Shown: positions 13,505-22,747 of the stretch, piece by piece
Numbering within the stretch: the stretch's first letter is position 1
How the letters are laid out: each line of letters starts with the position of its first letter
Source: Candidatus Dormiibacterota bacterium
GTDB taxonomy: Bacteria > Chloroflexota > Dormibacteria > CF-121
Length of the DNA stretch: 64,000 nt
Direction of reading: 5' to 3'
Assembly (NCBI GenBank): GCA_035544955.1
Contig: DASZZN010000033.1
Location: 1 to 64,000 of the forward strand
The notes under the pieces: generated by a model
Seen by the model: only the letters and a program-made list of their open reading frames with translations
What the model was told of the DNA's origin: nothing
Databases searched by the model: none
Translations under genes and position numbers: made by a program

Positions 13505-14101
13505 CTATCCCGTTGCGGGATCTACTGAATAGACAAGGTCCTCTAGAACGCGGTCGAGCGGCCGGGGCACCCGATTGAGATCCAGCGCCCCAACCAGCAC
13601 CGCCGCGGACTGGATCTTTCGGCCCCCCTTCGTGCCGAAGAAGCGCCGCAGCTGGTCCTCGGTGGTTCGTCCGCGCCACTCAGGCTGGTGCTGGAAGATG
13701 CGGAAGGCTTCGAGCTCACCCTGCGCGTCGAGAACCTGCTCCACGACGGCGGCCCCGAGGGCACGAATCAGCTCGTCCTCCAGGTCGGCGACGCAGACAT
13801 AGAAACCGAGTTGCTCCATCTCGGTGCGCGTCAGGTTGGCGCCGAGGCCGGCGCGCTCGAGACCGTGCTGGAAGTCGCCCTCTTCAGCGGCGTCACACAG
13901 ACCCGCCAGTCTGAGGCCCATCCCTTGAGGGCCGAATCGTTTCAAGAAGGTTCCAATGTTCGTCGCGCCGCCGATGGCCACGATCGAAATGCCTCGAGCG
14001 TTGAGATGGTGACCGCGGCGGGTGGCGAGCGCGTCGAGCGCGAGCTGGTCGCTAGTCCCCTCAACGAGGATGACGGCCTGAGCTTCGGGCGTCGCCTCCA
14101 T
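13505..14101 (-). CDS. Stand-alone TOPRIM-domain protein (OLD-like)
   Basis: 198 aa from ATG 14101; TACAGT (14109-14114) lies 7 nt upstream and supports this start over the longer frame. The N-terminus AVILVEGTSDQLALDALA is the TOPRIM nucleotidyl-transferase/hydrolase signature (E in VEG), followed by IVAIGGATNIGTFL and GLCDAAEEGD, where the acidic residues would bind metal. It resembles the TOPRIM part of OLD-family nucleases but lacks an ATPase domain. The function is unknown, but with a crosslink glycosylase 4 nt downstream a DNA-repair role is a reasonable inference. Confidence 0.75.
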   Translation of the reverse strand: MEATPEAQAVILVEGTSDQLALDALATRRGHHLNARGISIVAIGGATNIGTFLKRFGPQGMGLRLAGLCDAAEEGDFQHGLERAGLGANLTRTEMEQLGFYVCVADLEDELIRALGAAVVEQVLDAQGELEAFRIFQHQPEWRGRTTEDQLRRFFGTKGGRKIQSAAVLVGALDLNRVPRPLDRVLEDLVYSVDPATG

Positions 14102-14124
14102 GGCCGACACTGTACCGCCGAGGT

Positions 14125-14706
14125 TCAGGACCGTGGCACGAGCGCAAGCGCGGGGTCGGGTGCCAGCCAACGATAGACGAGCAGCCAGAAGGTGAAAAGC
14201 CAGCCAACCAGCAGGAGCGTGCCGCCGTAGTCATGGAAGAGAATCGCGGGCAGATAGCCCGCCAGGGCGGCCAGTAAGCAGACCGCCGTGATGCGGGCGA
14301 TGTTGACCAGCACGGTGCCAAGCACGCCCAGCGCGATCACTTCGACGCGTGTCGACAACGGCATCGGACCACGAAGTCCGACCATCAAGCTCAGGCCAAG
14401 CAGGATCAAGCTCTGCCAGCCGACGCAGTTCCATGAAATGAAGAGGGTTTGCGGTGCGCCGCTCGCGTTCCAGACAACGAGCTGATTCCCCGCGGCCCCG
14501 GCGTGAATCCCCAACAGGCCGAGCATGACCACCGTGACCCGGACTTCCGCCGGCACGATCCACTGCAACGGCGCCGCGATGCCCAGCTTCATGCCGATGA
14601 CGGTCAACAGATCGTCAAAGGTCGAGACGAAAGGCAAGACGACCAGCAGGATGGCGGTTAGCGCAAGGAGCATCGCAAAAACTGGCGTCGTCCGAGGTTG
14701 CGTCAT
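14125..14706 (-). CDS. Exosortase/archaeosortase-family membrane transpeptidase
   Basis: 193 aa with five or six membrane helices. The three catalytic positions of the exosortase family are visible in order: Cys in SWNCVGWQSL (about residue 91), Arg in NIARITAVCLL (about 140), and His in LFHDYGG (about 160). Exosortases cleave a C-terminal sorting signal (short motif, membrane helix, basic tail) and transfer the protein to a surface acceptor. The start ATG 14706 overlaps the stop of the upstream glycosyltransferase gene by 4 nt, and that protein ends in just such a signal (VPEHGS, hydrophobic helix, basic tail). It is smaller than EpsH-type exosortases and closer in size to XrtG-like or archaeosortase-like forms; I cannot assign a subtype. 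Confidence 0.85.
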   Translation of the reverse strand: MTQPRTTPVFAMLLALTAILLVVLPFVSTFDDLLTVIGMKLGIAAPLQWIVPAEVRVTVVMLGLLGIHAGAAGNQLVVWNASGAPQTLFISWNCVGWQSLILLGLSLMVGLRGPMPLSTRVEVIALGVLGTVLVNIARITAVCLLAALAGYLPAILFHDYGGTLLLVGWLFTFWLLVYRWLAPDPALALVPRS

Positions 14707-17039
14707 CGGGCTCTCCGCTTTGCCCACAGCGGCCGCCGGATCAGTTGCGCCGCCGCGAGCGGAAGGAGAAGCGCCAGACCGATAAGGGGACTGCCATGCT
14801 CGGGCACGACGATCGCCGGGGTCGCGATCGAGGTTTGCTGGTGGTTGCCGTCGTAGCGGAGGTCGAGACCTCCGTTGGTCACGGTGACGACCGTGATCTG
14901 CCAGCAGAGATATGAATTGATCGGAACGGTCACCGCCGGCATGGTCGTCGAGGTATCGGAGTTGCCGTTGTCCAGCACAGCCGTCCACGAGGCAATCGGG
15001 GCGATGACGGCACACGAGGCGGTTGCGCTGTAACCAAAGGTCAGGAGGGCAGTCACCTCGCCGTCTCCGTGTCCCGTCGTCCAGTAGGTGAAGATGTAGC
15101 TGCCCGCAGGGATGGTCTGCGCGGCGTACGTCGTGGTGGATGCCCAGGTCTGCGTCGCCCCCGGGTTCTCCATCAGGAATTTTGCCGGCGAGCTGCCCGA
15201 CTGAGTGTTGTCGATGGTGTAGGCGGCGCCCGGATGGTGGAGGTAGTAGATATTGGCCGCGAGCACCGTCGGTGCGGTTGCCGCGCCAACGCCCAGGATG
15301 GTCAGCACAAGGATCGGGGCGGCGATGCAGATCAGCCGAAAGGTCCGACCGGCGCGCCGGCCACTCTGGAAGCGTGCCTGGCTGGCAAACGGCCTGGTCT
15401 CGGTTTGACGCAGCCAGCGGTTGATGCTCTTCTTCTGCGGCAAGTGCTCGACGCGGTCCGTGACCCGGCCGGTCTTCGGGGTGCGAAACCACCCGCCCTC
15501 CTTGCGTTCGAACAGGCCTTTGACCGACGCCCAGGCCTGGAAGGGCACGAGGAGGAAAGACAGTGCGACCGCACCCAGAACGCCCTGGTAGTCGCGGCGC
15601 GGGGAGCCCTCCAGTAGCAGCCCACCAAGGTTCATAAGGGGCAGCGCGAAGAGGTTGGAGAAGAGAAGCGACCAACCAAGCAGCGCGGTCCACTCCGGGA
15701 TGTGCACGTGCAGGACGATCTCCGAGACCAGCCAGGCAGCTGAGCCCAGCATGAAGAGGGCGGACTGCAAGTAGTAGAAGCCGTAATAGATGAACTCGGC
15801 CTTTTCCAGCAGACTCAAGTTGCGTGACCGAAGGATGGTGAGGAACCATTTGTTGACGTTGTAGCTGTGACCCTCCGCCCAGCGCATGCGCTGGCGCGCC
15901 AGCCGTCCGAATGTCGCGACGCATTCGGCGGGGGTCTCCGCGTAAGGGGTGTAGACGACCTTGTAGCCCTTGGCGTAAAGGCGCAGGGTCAGCTCCCAGT
16001 CCTCAGTGAGACTGCGGCCCCATCCCAACTCCCTCAACAATCCCGCCTTGATCATGTAGGCGGTGCCGGCGATCATCTTCATCGAGCCGAGCACCTGCTG
16101 GAACGGACGCTCGATCATGTAGCTGCCGGCGTACTCGGTGCGCACGGCCGCCGTCAGCCAGCTCTCGCTCTTGTTCAGGACGTGCCATTGATAACTCTGC
16201 ACGGCGCCGATCTCGGGGATGAGGCGAGGCCGAGGGTTTCCCTGGCTGTAGAAGTGATAAAGCAGATCCCTGAGGACGTCCGGGAAGGGAACGGCGTCGG
16301 CATCGAAGATGGCGACGAATTCCGTTCGGGGGTCCATCGCTTTCAGGGCATACGTGAGTGCGCCGCCTTTGAAGCCATCCCTGGTGTCGCGGTGAATGAT
16401 GGTGAAGCGATCGACCTGCCGCCAGGCTTCGAGGACCTCCATCGACCCATCCGTCGAGTCGTCGACGAGGATGACTTCGTAGTTGGAATAGTTGAGCTTC
16501 GAGCAGGCCTCGAGAAGGCGGCCGATAACCCCCTTTTCGTTGTAGGTTGCGATGTGAATCGAGACAAACGGCTCGTACCCGAGCGGCAGCCACTTGGTGC
16601 GATTGCCATTGGAATGCTGACGCGCGACCCAGCCGCGACGCGTGATGCGCGCCAGACCGCTGAGATGTCCCCGCTTTTCCCCGGTGCCGTTGCCGTTATG
16701 GCCGGGACCGAAGAAGGCGAGCAGGAGCATGGTCGCCGTGGCCAGGTAATACTTGAGGGAATAGGCAAAGAAGAAGGCGCCCATGCCGAGGGCGACCAGC
16801 GCCAGTTCGAGGCCGAGCCAGGTGATGAGGCTCGCGTTGCCCGCCCGCGCGAGGGCGATGCCGGCCGAGGTACCGCGGACGATGGCAAAGATGGGGAGCG
16901 CGGCGACGAGGATGGTGACGAAGACGAGCAGTCCAATCAGCACGCTCCATAGCCGTTCGCTCAGCGGCCGAGGGGGCACGGCCTTACGGGAGCCGCTTGA
17001 ATTGTCGTCTGGATGCGTATTGCGCATAGCGAGGCCCAC
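14703..17039 (-). CDS. Processive GT2 glycosyltransferase fused to an exported domain with exosortase-type sorting signal
   Basis: 778 aa from GTG 17039, chosen because TAGCGT lies 6 nt upstream; ATG 17027 is the alternative. Two N-terminal helices precede a cellulose-synthase-like GT2 domain: SIHIATYNEK, VILVDDSTDGS, FDADAVP (DxD), TEDWELTLRLYAKGY and QRMRW (QxxRW). Further helices follow to about residue 500. At about 567-595 there is a signal-peptide-like hydrophobic segment, then about 150 residues of beta-rich sequence (596-744), and finally VPEHGS at 745-750, a hydrophobic helix and RRPLWAKRRAR. This tail matches exosortase/archaeosortase substrates. The exosortase gene follows with a 4-nt overlap. 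The enzyme probably polymerises a glycan while its C-terminal domain is processed or anchored outside. Confidence 0.85.
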   Translation of the reverse strand: MGLAMRNTHPDDNSSGSRKAVPPRPLSERLWSVLIGLLVFVTILVAALPIFAIVRGTSAGIALARAGNASLITWLGLELALVALGMGAFFFAYSLKYYLATATMLLLAFFGPGHNGNGTGEKRGHLSGLARITRRGWVARQHSNGNRTKWLPLGYEPFVSIHIATYNEKGVIGRLLEACSKLNYSNYEVILVDDSTDGSMEVLEAWRQVDRFTIIHRDTRDGFKGGALTYALKAMDPRTEFVAIFDADAVPFPDVLRDLLYHFYSQGNPRPRLIPEIGAVQSYQWHVLNKSESWLTAAVRTEYAGSYMIERPFQQVLGSMKMIAGTAYMIKAGLLRELGWGRSLTEDWELTLRLYAKGYKVVYTPYAETPAECVATFGRLARQRMRWAEGHSYNVNKWFLTILRSRNLSLLEKAEFIYYGFYYLQSALFMLGSAAWLVSEIVLHVHIPEWTALLGWSLLFSNLFALPLMNLGGLLLEGSPRRDYQGVLGAVALSFLLVPFQAWASVKGLFERKEGGWFRTPKTGRVTDRVEHLPQKKSINRWLRQTETRPFASQARFQSGRRAGRTFRLICIAAPILVLTILGVGAATAPTVLAANIYYLHHPGAAYTIDNTQSGSSPAKFLMENPGATQTWASTTTYAAQTIPAGSYIFTYWTTGHGDGEVTALLTFGYSATASCAVIAPIASWTAVLDNGNSDTSTTMPAVTVPINSYLCWQITVVTVTNGGLDLRYDGNHQQTSIATPAIVVPEHGSPLIGLALLLPLAAAQLIRRPLWAKRRAR

Positions 17040-19227: not shown

Positions 19228-19899
19228 TTACGGGCGATCGTCGATCCAGGCCTCGCCTTCGGTGTAGACCTCTTTCTTCCAGATCGGCACGGTGTGCTTC
19301 AGTTCGTCGATCAGCCACTCGCAGGCGTCGAACGCCTCACCGCGGTGCGATGCCGCTACGGCGATGACCACGCTGACCTCCCCCACTCGCAGCGTGCCGG
19401 TCCGATGCACGATGGCGAGGTCTGCGATCGGCCAGCGGCGACGGGCCTCCTCCGCGAGGTCCTCCATCTGCTTCTGCGCCATCGACCCGTAGGCCTCATA
19501 GACCAGCGCCCGAACCTGCTTGCCACGCGAATGCTGGCGGACGATGCCCTGGAACAACACGAGCGCTCCGTCAGCGTCGCTGCGGATCCCATCCCCGATC
19601 GCTGTGGGATCGAGCGGCTCCTCGCGCAGGGCCACGACGCCGCGCCGCTCGCCGATCGCGCCGCCACTCACCGGAGGGATGACGGCCAGCTCGTCACCGT
19701 CCTTGAGTTGGTCATCCCACCCCGCGTACTCCGAGTTGACAGCGCACCGGAAGGAGCGCGGAAGCGGGCCCAGGTCGTAGCGCGTGCTGAGCTGACTCCA
19801 GGCGTCGGCCGCGGTCGCCCCCGCAGGCAGCGCCAGATCGACATTGGGCTGCCCGACCAGCTCGCGAGGCTTGGCGAAGAGCACGACCCGCACATTCAT
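19228..19899 (-). CDS. MoaD-MoaE fusion (molybdopterin synthase)
   Basis: 223 aa from ATG 19899. Residues 1-80 are MoaD-like (beta-grasp), ending VIPPVSGG with the Gly-Gly at 79-80 that normally forms the C-terminal thiocarboxylate. Residues about 90-223 are MoaE: LVLFQGIVRQHSRGKQV, LVYEAYGSMAQKQMEDLAEEARRRW, IVHRTGTLRVGEVSVVIAVAASHRGEAFDACEWLIDELKHTVPIWKKE. Molybdopterin synthase inserts sulfur into precursor Z during molybdenum-cofactor synthesis. In M. tuberculosis the related fusion MoaX is cleaved after its Gly-Gly; the same is expected here. It is the last gene of the F420 operon, 4 nt after the phosphoesterase stop. Confidence 0.95.
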   Translation of the reverse strand: MNVRVVLFAKPRELVGQPNVDLALPAGATAADAWSQLSTRYDLGPLPRSFRCAVNSEYAGWDDQLKDGDELAVIPPVSGGAIGERRGVVALREEPLDPTAIGDGIRSDADGALVLFQGIVRQHSRGKQVRALVYEAYGSMAQKQMEDLAEEARRRWPIADLAIVHRTGTLRVGEVSVVIAVAASHRGEAFDACEWLIDELKHTVPIWKKEVYTEGEAWIDDRP

Positions 19900-19903
19900 G
19901 GCG

Positions 19904-20389
19904 TCATGATATCGCCGCTCGTTTGGGGAACTTCGGAACCAATAGCTTCTCCACTCGCAGTTCGCCTTCGAAAGCCAGCCGGGCCATCGTCCGCTCTGTG
20001 CCACCGAACTGCGGACGGGTCGCCGTTCCGGGGTTGATGAAGCGGGTTCGCCCGATCACCTCATCTCGCCATCGATGGGTGTGCCCGTGGATGAGGACGT
20101 CGTACCCGGCCGCCCACCGTGCCCGCTGTTTGTCGAGGTTGTGGACCATTCCGACACGCCAGCGCCCGATGGTGCCCTCGATCGTCGTGGGGTACCGCGA
20201 GTCGCTGGGCGCATTCCCGTTGACGACCACCACCCGCCCCAACCGGCGCAATCCCTCGAGGACGTCCTCGCTGCCCCAATCCCCGGCGTGCCAGATCTCG
20301 TCGACTCCGGCGAATTCCTTGCCGACGAACTCCAGGAGCGCCTCGACGTCGAAGCTCCCCTGCGTGTCAGCGAGCAAGCCGATCTTCAT
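19904..20389 (-). CDS. YfcE/MJ0936-type metallophosphoesterase
   Basis: 161 aa. The calcineurin-like phosphoesterase motifs are present in order but altered: MKIGLLADTQG (the usual DxH is DTQ), WHAGDWGS, VVNGNAPSD (the usual GNCD/GNHD is GNAP), MVHN and IHGHTHR. The loss of the first metal-binding His suggests changed metal use or weaker catalysis. ATG 20389 overlaps the CofE stop by 4 nt, so it is co-translated with the F420 genes; a role in F420 or nucleotide turnover is possible but not shown. Confidence 0.85.
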   Translation of the reverse strand: MKIGLLADTQGSFDVEALLEFVGKEFAGVDEIWHAGDWGSEDVLEGLRRLGRVVVVNGNAPSDSRYPTTIEGTIGRWRVGMVHNLDKQRARWAAGYDVLIHGHTHRWRDEVIGRTRFINPGTATRPQFGGTERTMARLAFEGELRVEKLLVPKFPKRAAIS

Positions 20390-21135
20390 CGAAAGAGGTC
20401 GGTCGCCGGATCCCGCAGCAGTGTCTGCACGCGGCCGTCGCCGGCCACCGTCGCACCCCGGATCAGCGCAACCGGGACCCGATCCAGCTTGCCCATCACC
20501 AACTCAGCCGCCGAGGCGATCTCATCGACAACCGCTAGCTCCGTGCCCTGTAATTCATACCCGTCCGGGTCCTTGAGGCCCCGGTAATCGCGCAATGCCA
20601 CCACACCGGCCGCACCGATCGCCACGTTGACCTGCCCTTCCCGCCAGGGCCGGCCGAAGCTGTCGGAGATCACCACACCGACCGAGACTCCAGATAGGGC
20701 GCGAAACGTCTCCCGCAATCGGCGAGCCGACTCATCGGGGTGCTCGGGTAGCAAGACCACGATCTCCTTGCCCCCCGTGTTCGATCGGTCGACACCGCTG
20801 TTGGCACAGATAAAGCCGTGCCGCGTTTCCGTGATCAGCACCCGGGGCGCCTCGCGAACGACCCGTACCGACTCAGAAAGTATGACCTCTACATGGCGCG
20901 GGTCGAAGCCGATTCGCTGGCCGATCTCCGTCGCCCGCGCGGAGGGGTGCACCCGGTCGAGCTGCACCAACCGCCCCTCGGCCTTCGAGACCACCTTCTG
21001 CGTGATGACGACAAGATCCCCCGCCTCGAGGGACATGCCGAGCCGCCCGAGGCCGTCCATGATGAGCTCCGGCAGCGCAGCGCCCTTGACGATCTCCGGG
21101 AGGCCGGCGACGGGATAGATCGAGACCGCACTCAA
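20386..21135 (-). CDS. cofE: Coenzyme F420-0:L-glutamate ligase
   Basis: 249 aa, the length of stand-alone CofE, without the nitroreductase domain found in actinobacterial FbiB. Family motifs include GDLVVITQKVVSKAEGR, ITETRHGFICANSGVDRSN, GVVISDSFGRPWREGQVNVAIG and LKDPDGYELQGTELAVVDEIASAAEL. The enzyme adds L-glutamates to F420-0 using GTP. It overlaps cofC by 4 nt (ATGA) at its start and the phosphoesterase gene by 4 nt at its end. Confidence 0.95.
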   Translation of the reverse strand: MSAVSIYPVAGLPEIVKGAALPELIMDGLGRLGMSLEAGDLVVITQKVVSKAEGRLVQLDRVHPSARATEIGQRIGFDPRHVEVILSESVRVVREAPRVLITETRHGFICANSGVDRSNTGGKEIVVLLPEHPDESARRLRETFRALSGVSVGVVISDSFGRPWREGQVNVAIGAAGVVALRDYRGLKDPDGYELQGTELAVVDEIASAAELVMGKLDRVPVALIRGATVAGDGRVQTLLRDPATDLFR

Positions 21136-21800
21136 GCGCGCGGCGGCAGACCGGCGAGGGCCCGGTCGGCGACGTCGAGCTCTTCCAGCAGGCGCCGCGT
21201 AGCGGTATCACGCGGCAGCCGAAGGAAGGCGACGACGTCGTCGGGCCGGTCGAGATCGTATCGGAGGCCCTCCACTTCTTTAACTTCGAAGCTGCGGTTG
21301 GCACGCCGCGCTTCGTCGTGGTGCAGGCTGAAGCTATCCTCCCCGAAGCGGAGCGTGATGGCGTGGGGCGGCACCAGCCGCAGCCCATTGGTCCCAAGGC
21401 GCTCGCGATCGGGTGCCAGCAGCACCTCGATTTCCGGGCGGTATTCCGCCATCCCCGCCAGTTCTTCAGACGTCACGGCCGGCACATCGCCCGGGATAGT
21501 GAGCGCGGCTGTGTAGCCCCGCTCCCAGGCGGCCGCGAACCCCTGCCGGACGGCGGCACTCTGACCCTGGGCGACCCGATCCGTCAGAGGTTCGAGGCCG
21601 AAGCGACGGGCCTCTTCCAGGATTTCGGGGTCGTCGGAAACAACGAACCGCCCGTAGCTGGTGAGCGCCGCAACCGCGGTGAAGACCTCACGAGCCATCA
21701 CCAGCGCAAGCCGCTCGCGTTCGTCTTCATTCAAGACAGGCTCGAGCCGGTGCTTCGCGCGGCGCGGTGATTTGACGGGCACGACGATGGCGAGCGTCAT
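21132..21800 (-). CDS. cofC: 2-phospholactate (or phosphoenolpyruvate) guanylyltransferase
   Basis: 222 aa nucleotidyltransferase: MTLAIVVPVKSPRRAKHRLEPVLNEDERERLALVMAREV at the N-terminus, FVVSDDPEILEEAR, ALTIPGDVPAVTSEEL (metal-binding GD) and a C-terminal region LRYDLDRPDDVVAFL. CofC/FbiD makes the guanylylated three-carbon donor that CofD attaches to the deazaflavin Fo. Whether it prefers 2-phospholactate or PEP cannot be read from the sequence. It overlaps cofD and cofE by 4 nt each. Confidence 0.93.
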   Translation of the reverse strand: MTLAIVVPVKSPRRAKHRLEPVLNEDERERLALVMAREVFTAVAALTSYGRFVVSDDPEILEEARRFGLEPLTDRVAQGQSAAVRQGFAAAWERGYTAALTIPGDVPAVTSEELAGMAEYRPEIEVLLAPDRERLGTNGLRLVPPHAITLRFGEDSFSLHHDEARRANRSFEVKEVEGLRYDLDRPDDVVAFLRLPRDTATRRLLEELDVADRALAGLPPRA

Positions 21801-22747
21801 GCGGCAGCCGGTTCGTGCAGCAGATCCAGGGCCGCGGAGGCGACCTCGCGAGCCGAATCGAGGTCGTCGAGCATGGTCGGACGCACGCTGATTCGGTAGC
21901 CGAGGTCCGCGATCGCCGGCGCTAGTGCCGCGTCGGCCGTGTCTAGGACGAAGCCGGCGGCGAGGTCCTGGTAGCGCTCCGCCACGCCGAGCGCGTCCGG
22001 CCGTCCTCCTTCGGCGCGCATCAACTCGACGGTCGGGCCCTTGACCGCGCGGCCGCCGATCAGTGGCGAGACGGCGACGGTCCGGCCGCGCGCGGCGCAG
22101 AGCAGGGCCCGCATCCCGGGCACCCGCAGAATCGGTCCGATGCTGATGCTCGGATTGCTGGGTGCGATCAGCACCAGGCGAGCCGCATCGAGCGCCTGGG
22201 CAATCCCGGGCGCAGGGCTCGCCTCCTCGAGCCCAGTCCAGTAGATCTCCTGGACGGTCGGGCGACAGCGTTCTCGCACGAAGTACTCCTGGAAATGCAG
22301 GTCGCCGCCATCGGTCTTGAGGCGCGTCTCAACCGGCGCGTCGCTCATCGGAAGGATCCGGCTACGGACGCCGAGTCGCTCCGCGATTTCCGCCGTCACG
22401 CGATGGAGCGGGACGCCGTCGGCCAGTCGCCCGGTCCGATACAGATGGGTCGCCAGGTCGCGGTCGCCGAGTTGGAACCACGACCGGTCCGTCAGCTGGG
22501 CGAGGGCTTCCTGGGCGGTAAACGTGTCGCCTTGGAGTCCCCAACCACGCGACTCATCTGCCACGCCGGCAAGCCAGTAGGTGACCGTGTCGAGATCGGG
22601 GGCGATGTAGAGCCCGTGCCACCACATGTCGTCGCCGGTGTTCCCGATCACGAAGATCTCCTCCGGCGGCACCACCCGAACGAGGCCTCGTAGGAATCGC
22701 GCCGCGCCGACGCCGCCCGCCAGGACGACGACGGGCCTCGCACTCAT
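21797..22747 (-). CDS. cofD: 2-phospho-L-lactate (or dehydro) transferase
   Basis: 316 aa. It begins VVVLAGGVGAARFLRGLVRV and continues IFVIGNTGDDMWWHGLYIAPDLDTVTYWLAG, EEASPAPGIAQAL and LVLIAPSNPSISIGPILRVPGM, all characteristic of CofD/FbiA. It transfers the phospholactyl or phosphoenolpyruvyl group to Fo. It heads the operon cofD-cofC-cofE-phosphoesterase-moaDE, in which the first four genes overlap by 4 nt. TATGAT lies 6 nt before its ATG, so its mRNA is probably leaderless. Fo synthase is not in the window. Confidence 0.95.
   Translation of the reverse strand: MSARPVVVLAGGVGAARFLRGLVRVVPPEEIFVIGNTGDDMWWHGLYIAPDLDTVTYWLAGVADESRGWGLQGDTFTAQEALAQLTDRSWFQLGDRDLATHLYRTGRLADGVPLHRVTAEIAERLGVRSRILPMSDAPVETRLKTDGGDLHFQEYFVRERCRPTVQEIYWTGLEEASPAPGIAQALDAARLVLIAPSNPSISIGPILRVPGMRALLCAARGRTVAVSPLIGGRAVKGPTVELMRAEGGRPDALGVAERYQDLAAGFVLDTADAALAPAIADLGYRISVRPTMLDDLDSAREVASAALDLLHEPAAA

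Follow-up and report, generated by a model that had tools for sequence, protein, structure and literature searches.

An exosortase-family protein encoded with a glycosyltransferase that carries its own sorting tail in Dormibacterota and in distant bacteria and archaea

The analysis of a 64,000-nucleotide stretch of DNA (the window), taken from a soil bacterium of Candidatus Dormiibacterota with a genome of 3.67 Mb and 95% completeness, reveals two overlapping genes on the minus strand. The first (14703..17039) encodes a GT2 synthase of 778 amino acids with an exported domain and a sorting tail, as delimited by its open reading frame and Pfam matches; its start codon is GTG, with an ATG four codons downstream. 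The second (14125..14706) encodes an exosortase/archaeosortase-family protein of 193 amino acids, assigned by TIGR04178 and by homologue alignment. Both frames had been placed here with a 4-nt overlap in a preliminary description made from the letters alone, and the sequence confirms this: the shared ATGA (14703..14706, minus strand) holds the TGA stop of the synthase at 14703-14705 and the ATG start of the exosortase at 14704-14706. Directly 3′ of the exosortase gene, an OLD-like TOPRIM orphan protein is encoded on the minus strand (13505-14170), its longest open reading frame overlapping the end of the exosortase gene. Also on the minus strand of the window are a gene for a single protein with MoaD-like (ThiS) and MoaE domains (19228-20004) and three adjoining genes that by their sequence resemble CofE, CofC and CofD of coenzyme F420 biosynthesis (20386-22747).

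The identity of the synthase was examined by family models, motifs and structural relatives. Matches to PF13641, PF13632 and PF00535 all lie far above their cut-offs, and the motifs VDDS, DAD, TED and QRMRW correspond to the D, DxD, TED and QxxRW of processive GT2 enzymes. Together with an alignment to BcsA over residues 156-496, cellulose synthase being the nearest solved relative, these features bear out the GT2 assignment, while the PgaC/IcaA equivalog TIGR03937 scores 89.4 bits, below its cut-off of 422. The catalytic domain, predicted to be cytosolic, covers residues about 156-390 (15870..16574, minus strand; PF13641/PF13632). Three hydrophobic stretches separate this domain from a linker rich in K/R, the third standing directly before the motif WFRTPKTG, which is followed by the linker and then by a 20-residue hydrophobic segment ending APTVLA|AN. 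We take WFRTPKTG to resemble the FxVTxK gating loop of BcsA, and the third stretch presumably resembles the interface helix that precedes this loop. If the tail domain is exported, the third stretch must be such an interface helix, an assignment that we infer from the resemblance to BcsA and that would give the right topology parity. The N terminus of the synthase is placed inside by the receiver, MshEN or helix-turn-helix domains that the glycosyltransferases of relatives carry at this end. Such architectures include a fusion with receiver and MshEN at its N terminus (L092:2595-5942), one with an N-terminal receiver (L105:2835-5891) and one with N-terminal helix-turn-helix domains (L119:1059-5981); MshEN binds c-di-GMP in other proteins.

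The neighbouring protein scores 36.5 bits against the superfamily model TIGR04178 (exo_archaeo; cut-off 23) in the NCBIfam search, whereas the named subfamilies (XrtA-Y, ArtA-F and the cyanoexosortases) all fall below their cut-offs, the best with 33.3 bits against 250. It matches no Pfam family, and the Pfam exosortase model PF09721 has no match anywhere in the genome at E 0.001. The Cys, Arg and His positions to which catalysis had been ascribed were located by alignment at Cys94 (14425-14427), Arg138 (14293-14295) and His158 (14233-14235, all minus strand) and are invariant across 23 homologues, which supports a catalytically complete enzyme. No solved relative was found by sequence search, and comparison of its AlphaFold2 model with the PDB gave no meaningful match. 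Exactly one exosortase was found in this genome.

The C-terminal tail of the synthase (residues 745-778; 14706..14807, minus strand) consists of VPE (residues 745-747), a hydrophobic helix with a Pro at +13 from the Glu, and six K/R, and so has the motif, helix and basic C terminus of a PEP-CTERM-like substrate. It had been read previously as a three-part signal beginning with VPEHGS; the layout of motif, helix and basic tail stands, but HGS does not belong to the motif, since the tails of the class share no invariant residues other than PE. Across 48 collected tails the tag is PE in 44, DE in three and SE in one, and in 42 of them the Pro follows the Glu at a distance of exactly 13 residues. 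A search of the genome with a tail profile returned one clear match, the synthase's own tail, the next (E 0.64) being noise.

By searching 61 genomes of the class, an exosortase was detected in 24 (23 clear and one, G019, a partial exosortase-like match without the external domain), the external domain in 23 of the exosortase-bearing genomes and a GT ortholog at E 1e-60 in 22, counts in which some genomes scored as absent may be incomplete, with MAG contigs ending near many loci. Outside the exosortase-bearing genomes, neither the external domain nor a GT ortholog was found among the 61, and the contig of the genome without a GT match (G033) starts inside the GT gene. A second, distant exosortase match (G057, L165) belongs to a pilus-like gene cluster and was set aside as standing outside the system. 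In all 25 loci with both gene ends (the window counted; simple scripts delimited the genes of related loci), an exosortase start that gives the 4-nt overlap with the GT stop is available, the spacing of −7 in some of them reflecting alignment start offsets where the start codons give −4. The glycosyltransferases of these 25 loci all have a C terminus made up of [VI]PE, hydrophobic helix and basic tail. The tail is kept while the domain before it drops to about 30-40% identity, so the features described here are not due to chance, and a GC-rich artefact of frame or tail was likewise rejected in view of conservation in homologues. The earlier claim that a substrate is fused to a polysaccharide synthase and made together with the transpeptidase is consequently upheld, with the fused tail and the overlap kept in 25/25 loci. 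Neither of the two outcomes named beforehand as counting against it, a tail lost in related genomes or an exosortase short of its catalytic residues, was encountered, tail and triad both being conserved.

These observations bear on whether the tail is a substrate at all. Because cellulose synthases carry additional membrane helices at the C-terminal end, and because a PE motif is short, the tail might be an ordinary membrane anchor of the synthase, the exosortase-like protein having some other target. This appears highly improbable given that the genome holds no second such tail, that exosortase, external domain and GT occur together in the class genomes, that PE and the helix Pro are conserved across phyla and that a stand-alone protein, described below, bears the same kind of tail. 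We regard it as very probable, judging from these sequence patterns, that the tail is processed by the neighbouring exosortase.

Between the synthase and its tail lies the exported domain (residues 595-747, with VPE at its end; 14799..15257, minus strand). A beta-rich addition had been proposed here, and AlphaFold2 does predict a confident, separate all-beta fold (pLDDT 85, mostly above 88 in the mature domain). Comparison with the PDB relates it to jelly-roll domains found in CocE-type hydrolases, at TM about 0.5-0.57, and to a lesser degree to CBM4 and CBM6 modules, making carbohydrate binding possible as judged from the model; Pfam and NCBIfam gave no convincing match to a known family. One external domain was found in this genome.

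The domain is preceded by a feature that the preliminary description missed. Residues 563-594 (15258..15353, minus strand) run from RR through a hydrophobic core to APTVLA, with a predicted cut at A594/A595, an arrangement that in sequence terms corresponds to a signal peptide set within a longer chain. The linker before this segment is rich in K/R, while the exported domain is almost without them. Across Dormibacterota the site reads [VA]xA|A, with one case of T at −3, and the mature start has [YF]L[HY] within a few residues; the sites in Anaerolineae and Patescibacteria, classic AxA ones among them, read TYA|APDTLYTH, VLA|APDTFYLR, ALA|NPDTFYLH and similar. The pattern P...[AVTSIG]xA ends the post-GT segment in 43 of 52 proteins, compared with 60 of 223 membrane segments elsewhere in these proteins, a comparison of related and hence non-independent sequences whose p-value serves as a guide only. 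A few family members have no clear cut site. Since a signal-peptide-like site stands in front of the external domain, the sequence suggests that the domain is freed from the synthase and not kept on it.

A competing reading involves one cut only, in which the exosortase trims or transfers the tail and the external domain stays on the synthase, guiding or binding the polymer. The internal segment presumably occupies the place of a later BcsA membrane helix, after the FxVTxK gating loop, and could stay uncut because BcsA has a helix there; WFRTPKTG is gating-loop-like in character, the BcsA alignment reaching to residue 496, and the jelly-roll is similar both to carbohydrate-binding modules and to the C-terminal domains of hydrolases. 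We consider this reading possible but less likely, because the V/A-x-A|A site is conserved together with its upstream Pro and the mature start, and because passenger length varies greatly across relatives while signal and tail are constant. A stand-alone protein of 271 amino acids in one genome (G013, L166:949-1764) also speaks against it, having the segment, domain and tail of the fusion but no GT, from which it follows that the exported part does not depend on fusion to a synthase for its existence. That both cuts happen, at the signal-peptide-like site and at the tail, is on balance the favoured expectation. The same genome (G013; L037 / L166) also contains several units of GT and external domain with Gly-Asn repeat linkers and apparent frame breaks, as well as one or more stand-alone substrates, with a CxxC motif close to the N terminus in at least one.

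A wider scan, using one genome per species, returned 80 loci from Dormibacterota, other Chloroflexota including Anaerolineae, Patescibacteria, Bathyarchaeota and Terraquivivens (Nitrososphaerota; thaumarchaeota). In most sufficiently long loci, a GT2 extended by a long additional region and ending in a PE-type tail adjoins the exosortase. Bathyarchaeota still show recognisable final strands of the external domain (E about 1e-5 to 1e-2), and in several Patescibacteria and archaea likeness to the Dormibacterota domain is limited to these strands and the tail. The exosortase tree broadly tracks taxonomy, with Bathyarchaeota and Nitrososphaerota forming one clade each, so the spread can be explained without invoking recent transfer.

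Taken together, the two genes would form a self-contained exosortase system whose sole substrate is made as the C-terminal portion of a processive GT2 synthase. The synthase would insert in the membrane with its catalytic domain inside, and the second, internal signal peptide (residues 563-594) would export the jelly-roll domain. Signal peptidase I would then cut after A594 and separate the domain from the synthase, the C-terminal VPE helix retaining the freed domain until the exosortase acts at or near PE through a Cys94 acyl-enzyme. The new C terminus would be passed to an envelope acceptor, either a lipid or the synthase's glycan, and the fusion would set equal amounts and a common membrane site for synthase and passenger. 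This picture of a polyprotein, in which signal peptidase cuts on the N-terminal side of a secreted jelly-roll domain and the exosortase on its C-terminal side, is the one that we hold to be probable, with moderate confidence. Sequences and models show the anatomy, its conservation and co-occurrence, the triad and a predicted folded domain, and from these both cuts, the transfer and the acceptor are inferred.

Whether the exosortase joins the domain to the glycan of the fused synthase, yielding a protein-tipped polysaccharide, is a narrower question within this polyprotein reading. The fusion of synthase and substrate points in this direction, as do the sugar-nucleotide and GT genes that flank related loci and the general placement of exosortases beside polysaccharide genes (PMC1569441). 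Against it stand the best-studied relative, ArtA, which attaches a lipid (PMC7157517), and the window itself, in which no further glycan genes lie adjacent to the pair, and we therefore regard the own-glycan acceptor as rather doubtful. Broader still, and unlikely, is a widespread bacterial and archaeal polyprotein exosortase system in which a variable secreted passenger, delimited by an internal signal peptide and an exosortase tag, is joined to the glycan of the same synthase.

Comparison with described systems separates what is already known from what looks new. Exosortases were proposed together with PEP-CTERM tags and polysaccharide loci (PMC1569441), and the PEP-CTERM/EpsH system shares with the present pair the three-part C-terminal tag, a Cys/Arg/His membrane enzyme and the link to polysaccharides, but it usually has many separate substrates per genome and larger enzymes, in contrast to one fused substrate and an enzyme of 193 amino acids. 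Lactiplantibacillus has an XrtG system in which separate neighbouring genes encode an exosortase, a single CTERM protein and a pair of glycosyltransferases (PMC12854382). The XrtG/Firmicu-CTERM arrangement of lactobacilli (TIGR03110, TIGR03111) therefore resembles this locus in what it co-encodes, whereas its substrate and glycosyltransferases are separate genes and the Dormibacterota pair joins them in one protein; the window exosortase does not match TIGR03110, and its archaeal and Chloroflexota relatives fall far below the cut-off. ArtA, of the PGF-CTERM system, is a related enzyme type with an active-site Cys, for which a Cys acyl-enzyme resolved by a lipid amine has been modelled (PMC7157517). 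One of its substrates, HVO_0405, joins domains around a cleavage site in the centre and is in this respect comparable to the GT fusion, but is described as strain-specific (PMC7157517), whereas the GT fusion recurs across phyla. The XrtP-associated glycosyltransferase (NF053846, a model of 440 positions) is likewise a GT2 tied to an exosortase, though the present GT scores 49.9 against its cut-off of 520. The matches of the window exosortase, taken to E 1, include no exosortase E model. Reportedly single-target (Haft, 2012), the VPEID-CTERM/exosortase E system has a dedicated exosortase and a VPE-type motif like the pair described here, but its substrate is not known to be fused to a glycosyltransferase.

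Single-target exosortases and exosortase-linked glycosyltransferases are in consequence already known. The earlier suggestion of an undescribed single-substrate arrangement holds in so far as one exosortase and one tail are found in the genome; as a novelty, single-target sorting is preceded by exosortase E and XrtG. The apparent novelty lies in the translational fusion, in its spread over bacteria and archaea and in the signal-peptide-like site before the external domain, and no description of a GT-fused exosortase substrate was found in the literature searched, which was largely open-access. The proposal of exosortases dates from 2006, and no acceptor is known to be established for the substrates of bacterial exosortases. 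The pair offers a simple case for asking what exosortases attach proteins to, with one enzyme, one substrate and one glycan synthase in two genes, and in this form the question of the acceptor can be put to a direct test in a heterologous host. A further hint from the fusion is that glycan synthesis and surface-protein delivery are meant for the same spot, and its occurrence in bacteria and archaea suggests an old arrangement.

A further variation was observed in Bathyarchaeota, where an exosortase-like protein is itself fused to an exported domain (L108:3913-5316, L110:4593-5996 and L117:4536-5912). These proteins stand between the GT fusion and a second exosortase and end in V[PS]E, a helix and a basic tail, combining a sorting enzyme with a sorting tag; in the L108 protein, Cys, Arg and His are in place.
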